Shown here: in pieces, positions 32,742-62,827 of the stretch
Position numbering within the stretch: the first letter of the stretch is position 1
Layout: the number at the start of each line of letters is the position of its first letter
Assembly (NCBI GenBank): GCA_027382625.1
Contig: JAJKFJ010022676.1
Location: 62,001-126,000 of the forward strand
From: Tetmemena sp. SeJ-2015
Taxonomy: Eukaryota > Ciliophora > Spirotrichea > Sporadotrichida > Oxytrichidae
Length of the DNA stretch: 64,000 bases
Reading direction: 5' to 3'
The notes under the pieces: model-generated
Database searches by the model: none
The model's input: the letters and a program-made list of their open reading frames with translations, nothing else
Told to the model about the DNA's origin: nothing
Translations under genes and position numbers: made by a program

Positions 32742-34077
32742 GTTTTGTCTATCTGAGTTCCTTTTCAGCTTTTTGTATTTGTTAAAAAGAAATATCTTAG
32801 TGATCATCATTCAATGAAATAAATAATTTAATGTTGACCTCTTTGATCAAGTGAATTTTCTACTGTATTTCCAGTTTTAGACGCTGACGTAGCATCAACA
32901 GCTCGTTCTAGCAAATATTGGTTACAATAAAAAGAGTGTTAGCTTACCTTGATACCTTACAAGAAAGAGTTTTCCTCATCTATCATTCTTCAAAAATTCT
33001 AGAGTTCTTAAATATCTTATTAAGGAATAAAATTTTTGATTGCTTGTTATTAAGTAATCATCTAGTCTTGAAGAATTCTGTTGTTCAAATTACTTTGGTG
33101 GAGGGAGGGTGCTTGATTACCGAATCTTAGTTAGTTCCCAAATGATGTGTTGATGTCACTTTAGCTCATAGAATGATGACCAGCTCAAAAATAAAAATAC
33201 AAACTCCATTTGTGAGCTCCGTTATTCAGATGGCGTAGTTGAGTTTTTAAGTACCTTTGGGATTAGAAATCACTCATCGCAGTTGATAAAGCAGAAGAGG
33301 GAATATTTCTAAGAGCCTGTGACTAACTACCTGCATTATGATTATTCTATGCATAGAGTTGCCCATTCATGTGCTGGTTTGCAAATTGACTTTAGCTCAT
33401 AGAGTTCTCATTAAACATGGTCTGAGTTATGATTGTTGAGAAATCGCTTTGACTTTGGGTTTTTTAACTTGTGAGAGGATATATTTCTACTGAAGACTAA
33501 GGAGATGAAGGCTCACTCGATGTTTAAGCTCTTTAAGCGAGATTATTATTACTACTATTTGCAGCTGCAGGATTTGCCAGCAACGACTTGAAATGCTGCT
33601 ACTTCAGAGTTCTTTTGAGGGCTCTTCTTTCAGAGATACACAAGAAATTTAAAGCCAATAATTGGTAGAATATATATTGCTGTCTTAAATTTTGACTGCA
33701 TAAAATGGAGTCAAGGAGCGCCAACTTTTGATCTATCTCAAGCTAAGCAGGGTGGAAATTATTCCTGAAATCAGAGAGGTAAGAATGCTATTGCTTATGA
33801 TAGGGCATGTGTTAATTATTCTCCTATTCTAATATTTCTTGAGGGAGCTTGAGGATTTAGAGGGTGGGTTATTGGTCAACTTAATCTGCAAGCAAAGGAG
33901 CCTGATTAGTTGCTGCTAATACTTGTTCCATTAGACCAAAATTATTATTAAAAGACACAAGCACTTTAACTCATTGTTAAAAACTTAATTATTATACCTG
34001 ACTTTCCTATCTATTTTATGATATAGATCTTAGAAAAATATAGGAGAAATAACATTCTCAATCTCTTTAGCTTTTGA
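32742..34077. other. Gene-free stretch beside the scrambled locus
   Basis: About 1.3 kb with no frame that stays open under the UAR=Gln/UGA=stop code. It abuts the inverted aminotransferase block at 34078 and may be eliminated germline DNA. It can be read as one long frame only if TGA also means Trp, which I do not accept (see rejected items). Confidence 0.45.
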
Positions 34078-34365
34078 ATGAAGTGTAGAGGGGGTATTTA
34101 TCCTAAATGTCCTTCATTTTCTTGTGGAGCTCATCGTCATCTCTAATGATTGTGACTCCTCCATAGATGGCGGTCTGCACTTTGATTAAACCCATGCTGA
34201 ACATAGTCATGGTGGAGTATTGATTGCCAGTGAACTTTTCTGCTCCACAGAAAGACTGAGCCACGTCCTCTAAAACATCAATCTACTTCTCCTTGCACCA
34301 TTTTGCGATTTCACTGATGTCATAGCGCACTCCGAACAAGTAAGCGAACAATACACACTTGGTCT
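34078..34365 (-). CDS. Scrambled aminotransferase gene, inverted block D
   Basis: Minus-strand coding block, fourth in protein order but first on the chromosome. It encodes TKCVLFAYLFGVRYDISEIA, DVLEDVAQSFCGAEKFTGNQ and MFSMGLIKVQTAIYGGVTII. These are the central PLP-binding motifs of DegT/DnrJ/EryC1-type aminotransferases, with the Asp of EDVAQ and the candidate PLP lysine in GLIK. It is bounded by two pointers: ACACTTGGTCT (34355-34365), the inverse of 35792-35802, and ATGAAGTGTAGA (34078-34089), repeated at 37075-37086. Joined to its neighbours through these pointers it reads in frame on both sides. On its own it has no start or stop. Confidence 0.9.
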
Positions 34366-34640
34366 ATCACAATAATTTTTCTAAAGCCCAAATATTTTCT
34401 ACTGGCTTGCCTCTTTGGTGAAAGATTTACAGAGTAGGAGAGAGAGTATGTTAGTTAATTGAAATCTTGTGCGGCTTGGTTGATAGTTTGTTATAGTATA
34501 ATTTAATACCTTACAATCGAATGACCACCCCTCCTTCAAATATTAAAAGTAAGTATGAATTCAAATTAGTTCACTCCCATTTACCTCCATGTCATTCTCT
34601 GATCTTTAATTAAGCAATATGTGTGCATTTATAGCATTAT
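34366..34640. other. AT-rich spacer inside the scrambled locus
   Basis: AT-rich DNA between the inverted block D and the first forward block. No coding signal seen; presumably eliminated with the other non-coding parts. Confidence 0.4.
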
Positions 34641-35802
34641 ATGTTATGATCTTGTTTTCATGGTTAACGAGTTTGAAACTAAGTGATTTGTGTAGGTTTC
34701 GAGAACTTGAAACTCAATGACATGCCCAAGACCATTTTGAAGGAATCTGACGTGATCCCCTGGCAGGGAGTGCACCTCCAATTGGATTTTATGGACCTCT
34801 TCGGCGCCGTGAAGCGTTCTCTCTCGATCGATGAAAAGGAGAAGCATTTCATTCATGCTAAGGTAAGTCTATAACTATCAGCATTAATAAATTTTAAATT
34901 TTTCGTATGAATGACTGTATCAGAATCAGATCAGGTTTGGTCAATATGCGAGTTTCCTGCTTAACAAGATTTGAATAACTAAATGACGTAGTTGAATTTA
35001 TTGCTAAACTAATAACTAAAGTGTAATTTTATTTTTATATTAAATGATAATTGGGCTATTGTACTTTCATTGTTAATACTGATGTGCAAGAACTTTGAAA
35101 AGGAAAAGCTATTGGTAGCTCTGAGTGTGAGATCAGCGTTTGACCTCTATTTCTAGGTAAGTTAGTTAACTCTCTCTACTCGCTTCTGCTTAATTAGCGT
35201 GGTAGCTACAGACTTTTTTATCCCTAATATAGACATAGTCAATCTAAAAATAGCACACTTAAAATAATAGAATTCTTAGATAATCTATTTGAGTAACATT
35301 TCAAAATTTAGCCAATATAAATGTTTAGAAGATTAAATTATCACTATATCGTGATACTTAATTTTCTTAAAATATTATAAGTTTGTGCTATAATTAAGCA
35401 AAGCACAAAACCTAACGGTGTTCTTCGAAAACGTGGAACAGAGACTTGTTACCAATTTAAATTACATTGACACCCTCGATTAATTCTCACTCTTCAATTT
35501 AAACACACATTTTATTTTATCTATATGTGAGATTGAATATAGGCGAGAAAGTTCCCTGTAGGCTCTGAGATTATCATGACTGGTATCAACATCCCCGACA
35601 TGGTGCAGATCATTAAAGAACATGGATTGGTCCCTATACCCATTGACTTCGATCTAGACACTATGTCTCCCAAGAACTTTGACGATATTAAAAATGCCGT
35701 CACTGACAAGGTAAAACCTTCCAAGATACAAATCATCTTTCTTATGTGAATTATTAACAAATTTTAATGAAGATTGTTAATGATTTCTCTTAGACCAAGT
35801 GT
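34641..35802 (+). CDS. Scrambled aminotransferase gene, forward blocks A-C
   Basis: N-terminal half of a DegT-family PLP aminotransferase. The blocks are 34690-34871 (VIPWQGVHLQLDFMDLFGAV, KRSLSIDEKEKHFIHAK), 34927-34970 (RFGQYASFLLNKI), 35045-35155 (LLVALSVRSAFDLYFQ) and 35541-35710 (VGSEIIMTGINIPDMVQIIK, PIPIDFDLDTMSPKNFDDIK). GT-AG introns separate them (one begins at 34872 with GTAAGT, one at 35156). The last intron (35711-35793) ends at AG. The following ACCAAGTGT is not continued here but on the minus strand at 34365, so protein order leaves this block and jumps backwards into an inverted segment. The start codon is not settled (MICVG- or an upstream Met). A junction near 34970-35045 is not fully resolved. 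Confidence 0.8.
35711..35793 (+). other. GT-AG intron at a scrambled block end
   Basis: Begins GTAAAACC after DIKNAVTDK and ends TTAG. Its last two bases are part of the 11-bp pointer AGACCAAGTGT, so intron edge and block edge overlap. Confidence 0.75.
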
Positions 35803-36087
35803 TTATTCCTTAATTGAATTTACTGACCACTGTAGTTGAAAATTTCTATGGTTGACTAGGAGTAAATGAATTGTTGAAAATAATCTTGAGGATAATATCT
35901 ATGAGCAAGAGAATGATGCAGTGAGATCCTAAGTGATAATAGCCTAAGCCTTATCACTTTGAGGGGGGAGGGGAGCGGATCTCTCAATCTCTATTAATTA
36001 GTTTCGAGAGTTATAAAAAGCAGAGCCTTGAATTTCTCTGTTCAATCTGATTAAAGCAGCCCCTTGGGACTTGCAGGTGATTAGACC

Positions 36088-37086
36088 TCAAAGTTTAATA
36101 CGGTTGAGGAGTTGGAGGGATCTAGGAGCATTTGGCTTAGGCATGCCATCCTTGTTGAGGTGATCAGCTAACTTGTAATAGCAATCGATGGTTCTCTCGA
36201 TGGTCTCTCTTAGGTCCTTATCGTCCATGCCTGAATGGATTGGCATCAAAATTTCATTAAGCACATATCCTTGTTACTGCTCGCATGTATACGATGTGAT
36301 CCATGAGCCACTTGGAGGCCTCAGAGTCGGGTCTGCCTTCAGGGGGAGCCACGTATCTCAACTGAGTTGCGCCTCTATAAGCGTTGATGCCTCTTGAGAG
36401 CATATAGTCGATGAATAGCATCTTGTTAGGGACAGCAATTGGGAACAGCCTATATAATAGTGGTCAGCCTCTTTTAATAGAGAATAGAATTTACCAGTAT
36501 CCTCTGTCTCTGATCTTGTGGCCCGGCACAAAGATACCTGCCTTAGTGAATGCGTCAGTGGCCAACTAAAGTTAAGATTAAGAAACGTTCAAGCCGATAA
36601 ATTCGGATCGTAAGAAAGATACACTATCCAATATCTAAGACTATGGTGGGGCAAATCTTAATTAACACACCAAAGCTGAAGTGGAAGGAAAGGGATTTCG
36701 AATTTGAGCAAAAGAGCTTCAAACTATGGTGGAGGGGGCAGTTGTGTATTACTTACTTGATACTTTCTCATATTTTCATCAAAAGACTTCTAGTCGAAAT
36801 CCTGAATCCTCTCATGAATGAAGTGAACCAGAGAGGCGCAAGGGTTGAATCTGAATCTAGCGATAAAGCTCAAAAGAATCAATCGTCGTTAATCAATTGC
36901 ATCTTACATTTGATTTGCTCTCACCTGGCTTGAAGCCTCTTGAGAGTGAGACATAGAACTCTTCTCTCTCTTTGCCAGAAAGCTTAGCTGCGTACAAGAA
37001 AGCCTTGTTGCCTCTGCCAGTGTTGATGAAGTAGTAGAGAGCCATGGCCGTCAAGCATCTCTTCCTCAGCATAGATGAAGTGTAGA
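36088..37086 (-). CDS. Scrambled aminotransferase gene, inverted C-terminal block E
   Basis: The C-terminal third of the same enzyme, on the minus strand downstream of the forward blocks. It begins at pointer TCTACACTTCAT (rc of 37075-37086) and reads SSMLRKRCLTAMALYYFINT, GKEREEFYVSLSRGFKP, FRFNPCASLVHFIHERIQDF and KAGIFVPGHKIRDRGYW. It continues FPIAVPNKMLFIDYMLSRGI, IVYMPIHSGMDDKDLRETIE and LLNRIKL, then TGA at 36088. It contains GT-AG introns (5' GTAAGT after MRKYQ; 5' GTAAAT after RGYW) and an IES at 36243. Family assignment is firm; the substrate is unknown. One intron edge (after GFKP) leaves a one-base phase problem. Confidence 0.85.
36243..36282. other. Predicted IES, 40 bp, pointer GCAT
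   Basis: GCAT at 36243-36246 and 36283-36286. Deletion gives DHIVYMPIHSGMDDKDL and removes an in-frame TGA. Confidence 0.8.
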
Positions 37087-37199
37087 TAGAAATATTTTGA
37101 GCGAGATAATTCGAAGAATTATTATCATCAACTTCTTTGAAGAATAAATTATATTAGCAGCAATCCATTATAATTAATCTATTATCACGACCTATCAAA

Positions 37200-38754
37200 A
37201 TGCAGCTGAATTCAGGCCTCAGTCAAATCTAATCCCCGCTCAAGAGTTTCGAAAACAAGGAGGTGCGGATGTAGTTCGATAAACTGCAATAAATGCTTGA
37301 TGATCATGAGTACAAAAAGAATCATAAGGTTAGTGAGAAAGTGAAATCGAAATGGAGTGAGTCTTTATTCTCTATTTGTAGATAATGAGCACGAGAAATT
37401 AGAGCCCGACCGATCGGAGCATGCGCAAGAGGACGAATCAAGATAATGACTAGCGTTAGCACTTACTAACTGGCCGCCCTACCTCTGCCATCACAGCGAT
37501 TGGAAATAACAAACAGAAGGGCCCTCGCATACAGAGGCACATGTCTACCAGTCAACTCCATGGAAATCCTAACTTGAATCATCAATACAGAGTGGTCGCA
37601 AATCCACAGAGAAGCGTCAATCAGAAATTCGTAAACCAGCAATTTCAGTAGCAATAGCAACAGCAGAGATAATAAATGCAGCAAATGTATTTTGGCAGCT
37701 CGCCTGAGAAGCCTAGAAATCTAATTGCTAAGCAGTACTTTGGAGTCAATCAGAATCCTCTATAGTCAGCTTAATATAAAAATTGAGGGACATTCTTTTC
37801 TAGTCTTAAGTGCTGGCAACATTTGCCCACCAAGTTTCGCCTTCTCAAGACATGAAACAGATTTCTCTGATTAATGGCGAGCGCACTCATCAGCAGCGCC
37901 CTCATAGTTCAAGGCCCTAAGTTATTGCAAGTCAAAGACAGATAGTACCTAAGATAGAAGGCTTCAATCTCATAGGTGAGCATAGTCGATAGTCTAAGAA
38001 TCAATAGAGACTCATAAAATAAATCTATAGTATAAGTTTTATAATGTTTTAAGAGACCTCAAAGACCTCTATCCAGTTAATAGAATCGTAGGTATGAATT
38101 ATTATTTTGTCTAGTTACACCAAAACAAAGTCCACCTCTAATCTTCTGAGGCAATCACTTGAGAAGAAGAACTCTCAGCAGCAGTTGTAGGTTTGGCAAG
38201 ACCCTCCCTCAGGTTCTAATAACAACAGCCAGTCTCACCTTAACTAGCCCGCCCACAATTTAAATAACCGCCTCACCTATCAAACTTTCCACGCCACTTA
38301 GAATTCATTAACTGGGGCTTAGGTTAGCAACCTAGTCCTGAGGCAGCGAGATCTTCAAGTTATGGGGAGAAATGATGGTCATCATCAGGGGGTGTCGGGA
38401 CATAGAAGCAGTATGAGGACAGGCAATATGCAAAGCAGCAAGTAAGCGAAAGCTTATTAGACCTGCTTCTGCAGTCTCCTTGTTGAGCCAGGGCTCTTAG
38501 TTTGGTCTCAGGTCCTTAACAAGGTTTTAAGAATGATATTTTCATTATGAATTTTTGCCTTTTTGTTTGGGGATAAGTAATATGCGAAACAGCTACAGTC
38601 GGTAAGTTCCAGACACTTCGAAGCCTAGAATTAACGCAGCTTCTATGATGAAAGTTAAATGCTAGGAGGAGGTGGTGGTCAGGGTTATTAAAGCTTCAGT
38701 GGGTCCTTTGGAAAACTAAAGTTTCAGAAAAAAGGCATACGCAGTCCAAATTGA
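37200..38754 (+). CDS. Gln/Asn-rich low-complexity protein
   Basis: Starts at 37200 (MQLNSGLSQIQSPLKSFENK), has a likely GT-AG intron (about 37326-37380), and ends with TGA near 38752 after KLKFQKKGIRSPN. The protein is rich in Gln, Asn, Ser and Arg, with a run of about ten Gln at 37640-37680 made of mixed CAG, TAG, CAA and TAA codons, and a poly-Gly stretch near 38660. No domain is recognisable. Frame changes near 37790-37830, 38090 and 38550 imply further inserts. Such composition is typical of regulatory or condensate-forming proteins, but function is unknown. Confidence 0.5.
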
Positions 38755-38899: not shown

Positions 38900-41063
38900 A
38901 TGGGAGAGATAGACGCAATTTTCAAAGCGAAGATATAGGATTTGAAGATACAGTTCTTTCAAAATCAATTCAATCGCTTTATCGACTACTGCTCCAAATA
39001 TTGCTACAATAGGAAGCTTTACCTCGGAGAGATCAAATAAATATTTTCAAAATTATCGATTAATGAAATATAAGATGAATCTGGGGCCTCTATCAGCCAC
39101 AGTCATTTGCAAAATTGCAGAGACTTCACCTCATGTGTCCAAAATCTTGATAATCCTGCATAAACTCTTATCTTCTATGATTTAAGAGCTGATTAAGTTT
39201 ACCTAAGAACCAAATCGGAGATGATGGAGCTAGGATCTTTGCCAAGCTAATTATGAAGACTCTTTTGCTAGTAGCAATAGATCTCTCTTCGAATGAACTA
39301 AGTCCCTCAGGAGGTGAAGCTATTCTTACAGCTCTTGGTTACAACTTAGTCTATCACAGATCTAAATATATTCATCTTCAGAGGGTCTCAATAGAAACAC
39401 ACTCGGAGCAAAGGGTGTATAGCCGCTTTATTTAATCTATCTACTATACACATTTCTCTATTTAACTTTAGCACGTTCTAGCTTATAACCAATTCCTGAC
39501 TGTGCTTAACGTTGCTGGCAACTTTCATTGGAAATAAGGGCCTGTCCTACATTTGCCAAGGTCTCAGAGACGGCTAAAACTGTACACTCCTTAAATTAAA
39601 TCTGGCTATGAATGACTTAACAGGTGATGGGATTGAGCAACTGTTTCAAGTTTTGCCTATTACTAAGATCAAAGATCTTGAACCTTTAGTAGGAATCCAC
39701 TCAAGAATAAAGGAATCAAGTCTGTTGGAGGATTCCCTTTCGCGAGGAGGGTTGTGTATTGAAACCCTGAGTCTCCAAGATACAGAGTTCAATTATTAGG
39801 GAGGGCCAAGCCTCTATCAAGGAATCAAGCGCAACAACAGAGTCAAATATCTGATCTTAGATGATAATAACCTAGCTGGGAAAACCCTCAATGACCTCTC
39901 ATCTGCTCTGTGGACTAACTCGTCGCTCGTCCGTTTATCAATGGAGAGTTGCAATCTTGGAGATAACGGCTGCATTTATCTTATGGACGGCCTGGAGCGT
40001 AACTCCTTCATAACTGATCTCAATCTGAAGAATAACAACATCGAGCATCAGGGTGCAAGCCGCATAGCTAAGTTTTTAGAGAATGCGATGGCAACCTCCC
40101 TATAGAACTTAAATCTCTCAGGCAACAGATTGGGGGACCTGGGAGGAGCCAGTATTGGTAAGGCCCTCCAGAAGAACAAGTGCCTGGTTACCAACGTGCA
40201 GTTATTCGATACTGAAGTGAAGGACGAGTGCGCTAAAGAGATGGCACAGGCTATGGTTGATAACAAGCAAATTACTCAAGTCAATCTAGGGTGGAACACC
40301 TTCAGTCCAAAGTATCAAACCCAGATCAATAAGCTCAAACATGACAACCTAGTCAGAGCAAGAGAGGACGAGTGCCCCCTCTAGTATTAGGAGATTGAGA
40401 AACTCACTAAAGCAAATGCTGAGATCCATGAAGTCAAGGCTAAGATCCAGAAAGCAGCTGCCAAGAAGCAAATCCTAGAGGGAAAGTTCAAGACTCTAGA
40501 TGAGAAAAACGATGTGCTCACTAGGGACCTGAGTGCTAAGTATGCTGTTGTGTAGGCCTAGTCAAATTAGTTGCGGCATGAGATGCTAGAGATGGATAAG
40601 ATAGAGAACAAGGTGGACCATGAGACGCTTAAGAGAATGACAGAGCACGAGAAGCAGTTTAAGCTGGAGTAGCGCAAGTATTTCAAGCAGTCCAAGGATA
40701 ATGACAAGCTGAAGGAGGACGTTAAAGAGGTGGAGGCAATGCTCAGGAAGGAGAAGTATGAACAGAACTAGGAGAAGCAAGTCTTTATCAGGTAGCTTGA
40801 CGAACTCCAAAAGAAGCTCTATGCAGCTGAAATCAAAGGTTTTCTCATTCTCTTAGCTTATATGTTTGTTTGAAATGTCTTATCAGTCGTTGTTTGGGGA
40901 GCTTGAGAAATAAAGAGCAGCCTTGCTCAAGCCCTAAGAGGAAGTGAAGGTAGTGGAGGAGCAGCCAGTGAATGTGTAAGCAAATCCTGAAAAGAGTCCT
41001 GTTAGAAAACTCAGGGTTAAGAAGGGGAAGAAGTCTGCTAAGAAGCCTAAGAAAGAAAAATGA
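38900..41063 (+). CDS. Leucine-rich-repeat / coiled-coil protein 2
   Basis: Starts at 38900 (MGEIDAIFKAKIQDLKIQFF), ends with TGA at 41061 after a Lys-rich tail (KKGKKSAKKPKKEK). LRRs of the RNase-inhibitor type occupy 39200-40340 (NQIGDDGARIFAKLI, LNLAMNDLTGDGIEQLF, ITDLNLKNNNIEHQGASRIA, NLNLSGNRLGDLGGASIGKA, ITQVNLGWNTFSPKYQTQIN). A long coiled coil follows (40380-40840, EIEKLTKANAEIHEVKAK). Architecture parallels the gene at the left edge. LRR plus coiled coil of this kind is often found in axonemal proteins, which is inference. An IES at 40829 interrupts the coiled coil; smaller inserts near 39190 and 39330-39500 are needed to keep the LRR frame. Confidence 0.75.
40829..40871. other. Predicted IES, 43 bp, pointer GAAAT
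   Basis: GAAAT at 40829-40833 and 40872-40876. Deletion gives KKLYAAEMSYQSLFGELEKQ in frame. Confidence 0.8.
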
Positions 41064-42494: not shown

Positions 42495-43225
42495 ATGATC
42501 AGAGGTCTGGGTGATTACAAGAAAGAAGAAAAGAAGGGCGGCAAGAAAACTGAAGCCTACGCTGGCGGAGACTAGAGCGGCATCGCAGTTGAGAACGATG
42601 ACATAGAATCTATAGTGCAGAAGGCGAGAAACGCAAGAGGAGCAGCGACGACTTGCCCGCACTTCAGATGGAAACAAAGACTGAACTTAGAATCAAGCTA
42701 TACTCAAATGGCTTCCAGGTGGACGACGGTCCCTTCAGACCCTATGAAAGCGAGGAGAACAAGCAGTTCATGAAGGAGCTCAACGAAGGCTACGTCCCCA
42801 AGGAAATCCAGGAAAAGTACAAGGGCAAAGGTGTCAGTGTAGGCCTTGAGGATAGAAGGAGCGAGGCCTACAGACCTCCCACCCCTCCCAAGTACGTTGC
42901 CTACTCAGGCTCTGGCATGAGCATGGGCGGCACTTCTGGTCTCGGCCTCACTGTTAACAAAGATGCAGCTGGCTTGCCTATTGTTGACGATTCTCAGCCT
43001 AAGACTACAATCCAGATCAGATTCCACAACGGAGAGCGAGCTTCAATTACTCTGAACTTGCACCACCGCGTGAGCGACATCCACGACTACGTTATGCAAG
43101 CAGCTCCTGTTGAGGGAGAGTACCAGCTGGTATTCGGCTTCCCTCCCAAGCCAATTACCAATCCTTCCCTGACTATCGAGGCAGCTGGTCTCAAGAACGC
43201 AGCCATCACTCAGAAGATCGTATGA
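42495..43225 (+). CDS. p47/NSFL1C-type UBX cofactor of Cdc48/p97
   Basis: Adaptor that recruits the AAA ATPase Cdc48/p97 in membrane fusion and ubiquitin-dependent processes. Starts at 42495 (MIRGLGDYKKEEKKGGKKTE). It has the SHP-like box YAGGDQSGIAV (the Q is TAG), a SEP domain (LRIKLYSNGFQVDDGPFRPY, FMKELNEGYVPKEIQEKYKG, SVGLEDRRSEAY) and a C-terminal UBX domain (TTIQIRFHNGERASITLNLH, VSDIHDYVMQAAP, YQLVFGFPPKPI, ITQKIV). It stops at TGA 43223-43225. The N-terminal UBA domain of animal p47 is absent. The frame shifts once near 42626-42640 and is repaired by removing 11 bp. Confidence 0.9.
42626..42636. other. Predicted tiny IES, 11 bp, pointer GAG
   Basis: GAG at 42626 and 42637. Removing 11 bp joins ESIVQKAR to SSDDLPALQMETKTELR in the UBX gene. 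A single missing base would also mend the frame, so this is tentative. Confidence 0.45.

Positions 43226-61103: not shown

Positions 61104-62827
<1,724 letters not shown>

Follow-up and report, generated by a model that had tools for sequence, protein, structure and literature searches.

Introduction

Germline genes with scrambled segments have been described in the spirotrich ciliates Oxytricha trifallax, Tetmemena and Euplotes woodruffi (in the part of PMC9797194 drawn on here), and in Halteria grandinella and Strombidium cf. sulcatum (likewise in part of PMC10901763). In section 19 of the latter paper, scrambled chromosomes are reported for all four spirotrichs studied, from 4.2% in Euplotes vannus to 29.2% in O. 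trifallax, and 14.7% of the scrambled chromosomes of O. trifallax carry an inversion and an insertion together. Section 8 of PMC9797194 describes a tendency of scrambled genes to have more paralogs.

The locus presented here lies in a window of 64 kb (the whole stretch of DNA that was analysed) and holds three blocks of one DegT/DnrJ/EryC1/StrS-family aminotransferase gene. As in the spirotrich scrambled genes covered by the parts of PMC9797194 and PMC10901763 used here, segments are out of order and inverted, a repeat is found for each join, and small predicted IESs are present. Unlike those cases, the gene is a different one and the pointer between blocks C and D overlaps a predicted 3' splice site of the same gene. 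Against the paralog trend in PMC9797194, as far as its section 8 goes, no paralog of this gene was found in the assembly. A search of the open-licence PMC literature found no paper on a scrambled micronuclear aminotransferase gene with pointers; the gene may still be described. In all likelihood this is a scrambled germline gene, probably rebuilt on DNA at two 12-bp pointers during development of the somatic nucleus.

Organization of the Gene

Block ABC is on the plus strand and ends at 35802, while blocks D (34366-34078) and E (37086-36088) are both on the minus strand. The initial annotation had proposed that an aminotransferase can be read only in the order A-B-C, D (minus), E (minus), and the blocks and repeats that it named are indeed present. 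Read along the minus strand, the pieces run 3-4-5, then 1 inverted, then 2. The segments are therefore both non-collinear and inverted, which is what marks a gene as scrambled. The annotation had also called for two inversions, and here it needs revision: D and E share a strand, the repeat between them is direct, and ABC alone is inverted, with a permutation of the blocks in addition. If reversals were the sole operation, a minimum of three was computed to be necessary to unscramble the gene. Block A had been drawn from 34.64 kb, which is outside its reading frame; the frame opens at 34677 and the likely start codon is at 34722. The features are listed below, with identities given relative to P0001, the closest protein among the relatives listed.

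34078..34366, minus strand: block D, predicted MDS2, residues 126-220 including the pointer; 78 of 95 residues identical to P0001; by alignment, contains the counterpart of the PLP lysine in DegT enzymes
34078..34089, minus strand: pointer D/E, copy 1, TCTACACTTCAT; closes block D
34355..34366, minus strand: pointer C/D, copy 2; opens block D
34367..34721: spacer between D and A
34722..34862, plus strand: exon A, coding for residues 1-47 from a likely ATG at 34722, which was placed by comparison with relatives such as P0002-P0004; belongs to predicted MDS1
34863..35090, plus strand: predicted intron 1, GTAAGT...CAAG, 228 bp; may alternatively be an IES
35091..35156, plus strand: exon B, residues 48-69, its last codon TAG (Gln)
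35157..35542, plus strand: predicted intron 2, GTAAGT...ATAG, 386 bp
35543..35710, plus strand: exon C, residues 70-125; identical to P0001 at 37 of 45 residues (81-125)
35711..35793, plus strand: predicted intron 3, GTAAAA...CTTAG, 83 bp; P0001 has an intron-like stretch of 12 residues at the equivalent place
35791..35802, plus strand: pointer C/D, copy 1, TAGACCAAGTGT; begins at TAG, the predicted 3' splice site of intron 3, and closes predicted MDS1
35794..35802, plus strand: tail of ABC after intron 3
35803..36087: spacer between C and E5
36088..36243, minus strand: E5, predicted MDS5, with the TGA stop at 36090-36088
36244..36283, minus strand: predicted IES2, 40 bp with one copy of the ATG repeat counted in
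36284..36867, minus strand: E2-E4, predicted MDS4, with predicted introns 4 (36756-36566) and 5 (36494-36450) inside; identical to P0001 at 33 of 37 residues (274-310)
36868..36916, minus strand: predicted IES1, 49 bp with one copy of the GAGC repeat counted in
36917..37086, minus strand: E1, predicted MDS3, coding after the pointer at 37074-36917; identical to P0001 at 51 of 53 residues (221-273)
37075..37086, minus strand: pointer D/E, copy 2; opens block E

If predicted MDS1 is complete, the 5' end of the somatic gene would have to fall in 34367..34721 and, if predicted MDS5 is complete, the 3' end in 35803..36087.

Pointers and Reading Frame

The C/D pointer is an exact word, TAGACCAAGTGT, found on the plus strand at 35791-35802 and on the minus strand at 34366-34355. 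The word and its inverted copy had been recognized in the initial annotation; its length is 12 bp rather than the 11 bp given there. The D/E word of 12 bp, reported at 34078-34089 and 37075-37086, is confirmed as TCTACACTTCAT (minus strand 34089-34078 and 37086-37075), a direct repeat. Each of the two words occurs twice within the window. Codon phase is preserved through both joins, as had been claimed, and the frame implies that one copy of the shared pointer is retained at each. The joined model comprises 441 codons with the final TGA as its sole stop (440 residues), and four in-frame TAG codons are read as glutamine, as is usual in the ciliate code.

A pair of 12-bp repeats is of little weight by its mere presence. 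The region 33500-37700 contains three direct and two inverted 12-mer pairs, against 0-36 direct and 0-10 inverted pairs in 29 overlapping 4.2-kb stretches tiling the window. Random pairs of 120-bp stretches from the window shared a word of at least 12 bp in 36 of 20,000 draws (overlapping draws were skipped uncounted), a comparison that is post hoc since the real stretches were placed on known repeats. As 12-bp repeats are commonplace in stretches of the larger size, the weight rests on their position and phase.

A joining of the pieces by trans-splicing was also considered, with the order in the DNA being real and the joins made at the RNA level. Block D has its own TAG before ACCAAGTGT, and a splice from the exon C donor (35711) is conceivable. 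However, the D/E word has neither a donor nor an acceptor at any offset, and at no common offset does the C/D word combine a donor (GT or GC) with an acceptor (AG). Thus, canonical splicing between the repeats cannot make either join, and repeats of 12 bp are needless for trans-splicing. We regard this explanation as scarcely credible.

Joining of the scrambled gene at its pointers leaves five predicted GT-AG introns of 228, 386, 83, 191 and 45 bp. Two small predicted excisions within E add to the anatomy that the initial annotation had given, one of 49 bp flanked by GAGC repeats and one of 40 bp flanked by ATG repeats. Removal of the first gives GESFIARFRF, exactly as in P0001, the GAGC boundaries having been chosen with P0001 in view. 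Removal of the second gives HIVYMPIHSGM, for which P0005, for example, has HVIYLPVHKNV. An earlier placement of IES1 between TTCAA repeats, in a 428-residue model, was discarded because it loses the GESFIARFR present in P0001. Pointers at scrambled joins exceed those at plain IESs in length as a published rule, in the portion of the literature used here, and the present values of 12 and 12 bp versus 4 and 3 bp agree with it.

The Encoded Protein and Its Relatives

By its sequence, the gene encodes a predicted DegT/DnrJ/EryC1/StrS aminotransferase of the perosamine-synthase-like family. With the 428-residue model, the joined protein scored 75 bits against PF01041 (DegT), for which the cut-off is 19.8; taken separately, ABC scored 17.5 bits and D 34 bits, and E alone gave no match. 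The same model matched 39 PDB sequences, the best being 7n63. The lysine of GLIKVQTA in block D aligns with that of YPGKNLGA in 7n63, which we take to be the catalytic PLP lysine of DegT enzymes.

Relatives were searched with the 428-residue model, and the best 120 of the 157 found were used. Identity to the nine longer relatives compared is 31-35%. Within these best 120, the order ABC-D is found in 120 of 120 and D-E in 114 of 114; all 114 relatives that match the three blocks have ABC-D-E, which is the order of the initial reading. Overlaps of up to 15 residues were tolerated in this comparison, and the six other relatives have no BLAST match to E at 0.01.

P0001 is a frame of 245 residues represented by two contigs, the longest of which is 2373 bp. 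It is collinear across IES1 as well as both joins; once a stretch of 12 residues, VTNHSSLNLYHQ, is left out, 199 of 230 residues (positions 81-310) are identical. A presumed somatic molecule that is collinear across the joins is thus provided by a relative, P0001, and none from the host species was found in the assembly. The stretch VTNHSSLNLYHQ sits exactly at the position of intron 3, beginning with valine (GTN) and ending with glutamine, for which CAG would serve, as would an unspliced 36-base GT-AG intron in P0001. Similarly, the terminal VSA of P0001 fits the donor of intron 4 (GTAAGT). We assume that P0001 represents the somatic DNA of a related organism.

Among the best 120 relatives, none bears the name of Oxytricha or Stylonychia, whereas molluscs, lancelets, echinoderms and oomycetes are present and most entries are nameless. 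The aminotransferase gene may be patchy among ciliates.

Host Lineage and Flanking Genes

The host is most likely a spirotrich because TAG is read as glutamine, C4A4 repeats are present, and a calcineurin tree places it there. C4A4 is the telomere repeat of spirotrichs. The assembly contains the exact 20-mer CCCCAAAACCCCAAAACCCC, composed of C4A4 repeats, 67 times, and in nine of these cases it opens a contig at base 1; the backward control is the same word and so provides no chance level. The tree was calculated from 21 sequences, of which 20 were selected from a listing of 120. In it, the calcineurin-like protein of the window groups with Stylonychia and unnamed relatives with a support of 1.000, apart from Paramecium, Tetrahymena, Stentor and Blepharisma. 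The protein is 45% identical to Stylonychia calcineurin and 51-54% identical to two eukprot entries. A search with alpha-tubulin listed 120 matches, mostly fused or distant tubulins, with no named ciliate of use for the placement, which thus holds at the level of spirotrichs. For tintinnids, genomic data are reported to be lacking (PMC13408134).

The neighbours were identified by scanning frames picked by codon score with Pfam; apart from the aminotransferase gene, two genes were followed by eye over their gaps. The gene for the calcineurin-like phosphatase (approximately 57.0-58.6 kb, minus strand) is collinear where it was read by eye, with a predicted excision of 40 bp between AATC repeats at 58118-58075, the removal of which gives the unbroken DYVDRGIFSIEVLVFLFALK. 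Short repeats that flank plain IESs are thus present in the same genome as the scrambled joins, as GAGC and ATG in the aminotransferase gene and AATC in this one, all predicted from the reading frame. The two genes are separated by, among others, an LRR frame at 39500-40873 and an SEP/UBX frame at 42617-43219. A kinase gene at 61.1-62.8 kb also appears collinear by eye, with a Pfam kinase match in 62380-62820 and none in 61149-61556. At 62361-62343 it reads with a one-base shift of frame directly past the DFG motif, which may reflect either a base slip introduced during assembly or a genuine break.

A Single Locus in the Assembly

The assembly comprises 146,216,379 bases in 5213 contigs. A search with the 440-residue model gave eight matching pieces, all of them at the window locus; the 146-Mb assembly, from which short somatic chromosomes may be missing, yielded no paralog, no haplotig and no collinear copy.

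These results were weighed against two further explanations. In the first, the germline gene is collinear and misassembly has flipped or moved either D and E or ABC. An assembly in 5213 contigs is fragmented and may contain base-level slips, such as the one that would put the kinase gene out of frame past its conserved motif at 62361-62343. However, both switches would need to hit 12-bp repeats exactly, at joins that are exact to the codon, and the pieces are found once in the assembly. An assembler is not led astray by a repeat as short as 12 bp. Misassembly is considered improbable. In the second, the locus is a decayed or rearranged pseudogene with a working copy elsewhere. Its coding pieces are fragmented and permuted, as decay would have them, and an incomplete assembly could miss a working copy; against this, no other copy was found in the assembly, the joined frame is unbroken, and 199 of 230 residues are identical to P0001. 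A pseudogene is considered more improbable still, if not as far-fetched as trans-splicing.

A scrambled germline gene with pointers, as the initial annotation had proposed, is the reading favored by the protein order in the relatives, the collinear P0001, the in-phase pointers, the IES-like excisions in two genes of the window, and the single locus.

Other contigs of the assembly carry telomere-like ends. L025, L026 and L027 (14.8-21.2 kb) have an exact CCCCAAAACCCCAAAACCCC at positions 1-20, whereas their other ends lack it. What follows CCCCAAAACCCCAAAACCCC in L025 is found elsewhere only on contig C1815, at 95% identity, where no CCCCAAAACCCCAAAACCCC is listed at that point; L025 has a telomere-like end on otherwise germline-like DNA. 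C1815 also has an insertion of approximately 6.5 kb (L046:2965-9472) that is absent from L025; its first bases are C4A4 repeats, next to TTA as a short target repeat. This insertion was considered as a telomere-bearing element and the idea was dropped, as its right end is no mirror of the left and there is no simple terminal repeat. By eye, L028 and L029 contain a stretch that resembles the left part of the insertion, reversed.

A Model for Rebuilding the Gene

We infer that the blocks are joined at the DNA level in the developing macronucleus, in the manner known for spirotrichs. ABC would be flipped relative to D and E, D would be attached after C and E after D, and a single copy of the pointer would be retained at each join. 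The choice of partners would probably be guided by template RNA, as described for Oxytricha. Both small excisions in E would be eliminated in the manner of ordinary IESs, with pointers of 3-4 bp, while the long pointers would serve the scrambled joins. The five predicted introns would leave later, at the RNA level. Between the arbitrary ends 34560 and 36060, the rebuilt molecule would measure 2446 bp in the model.

The C/D join is one point where this locus may be compared with published cases. Section 10 of PMC9797194 describes an intron boundary that coincides with a rearrangement junction, and the same is seen here with a predicted intron. In the part of that paper drawn on, an intron in one species corresponds to a pointer in another, whereas here a predicted intron and a pointer occur together, and P0001 is also intron-like at that place. 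A scrambled break may have fallen on the existing end of an old intron, a tentative idea that we hold to be rather doubtful, and the C/D pointer would then be both an address for DNA joining and a 3' splice site for RNA. If the pointer does lie on an old intron end, one kept in the relative, introns may be safe landing sites for scrambling without a cut in a codon.

The gene would be a new example of a known phenomenon, which it extends slightly in a single respect, the location of a pointer on a predicted splice site. While the picture of ciliate genome rearrangement is unchanged, the locus offers a clean and readable case that needs both inversion and permutation, in which three kinds of junction (scrambled pointers, plain IESs and predicted introns) are found together, and it provides a testable case of a pointer on a splice site.
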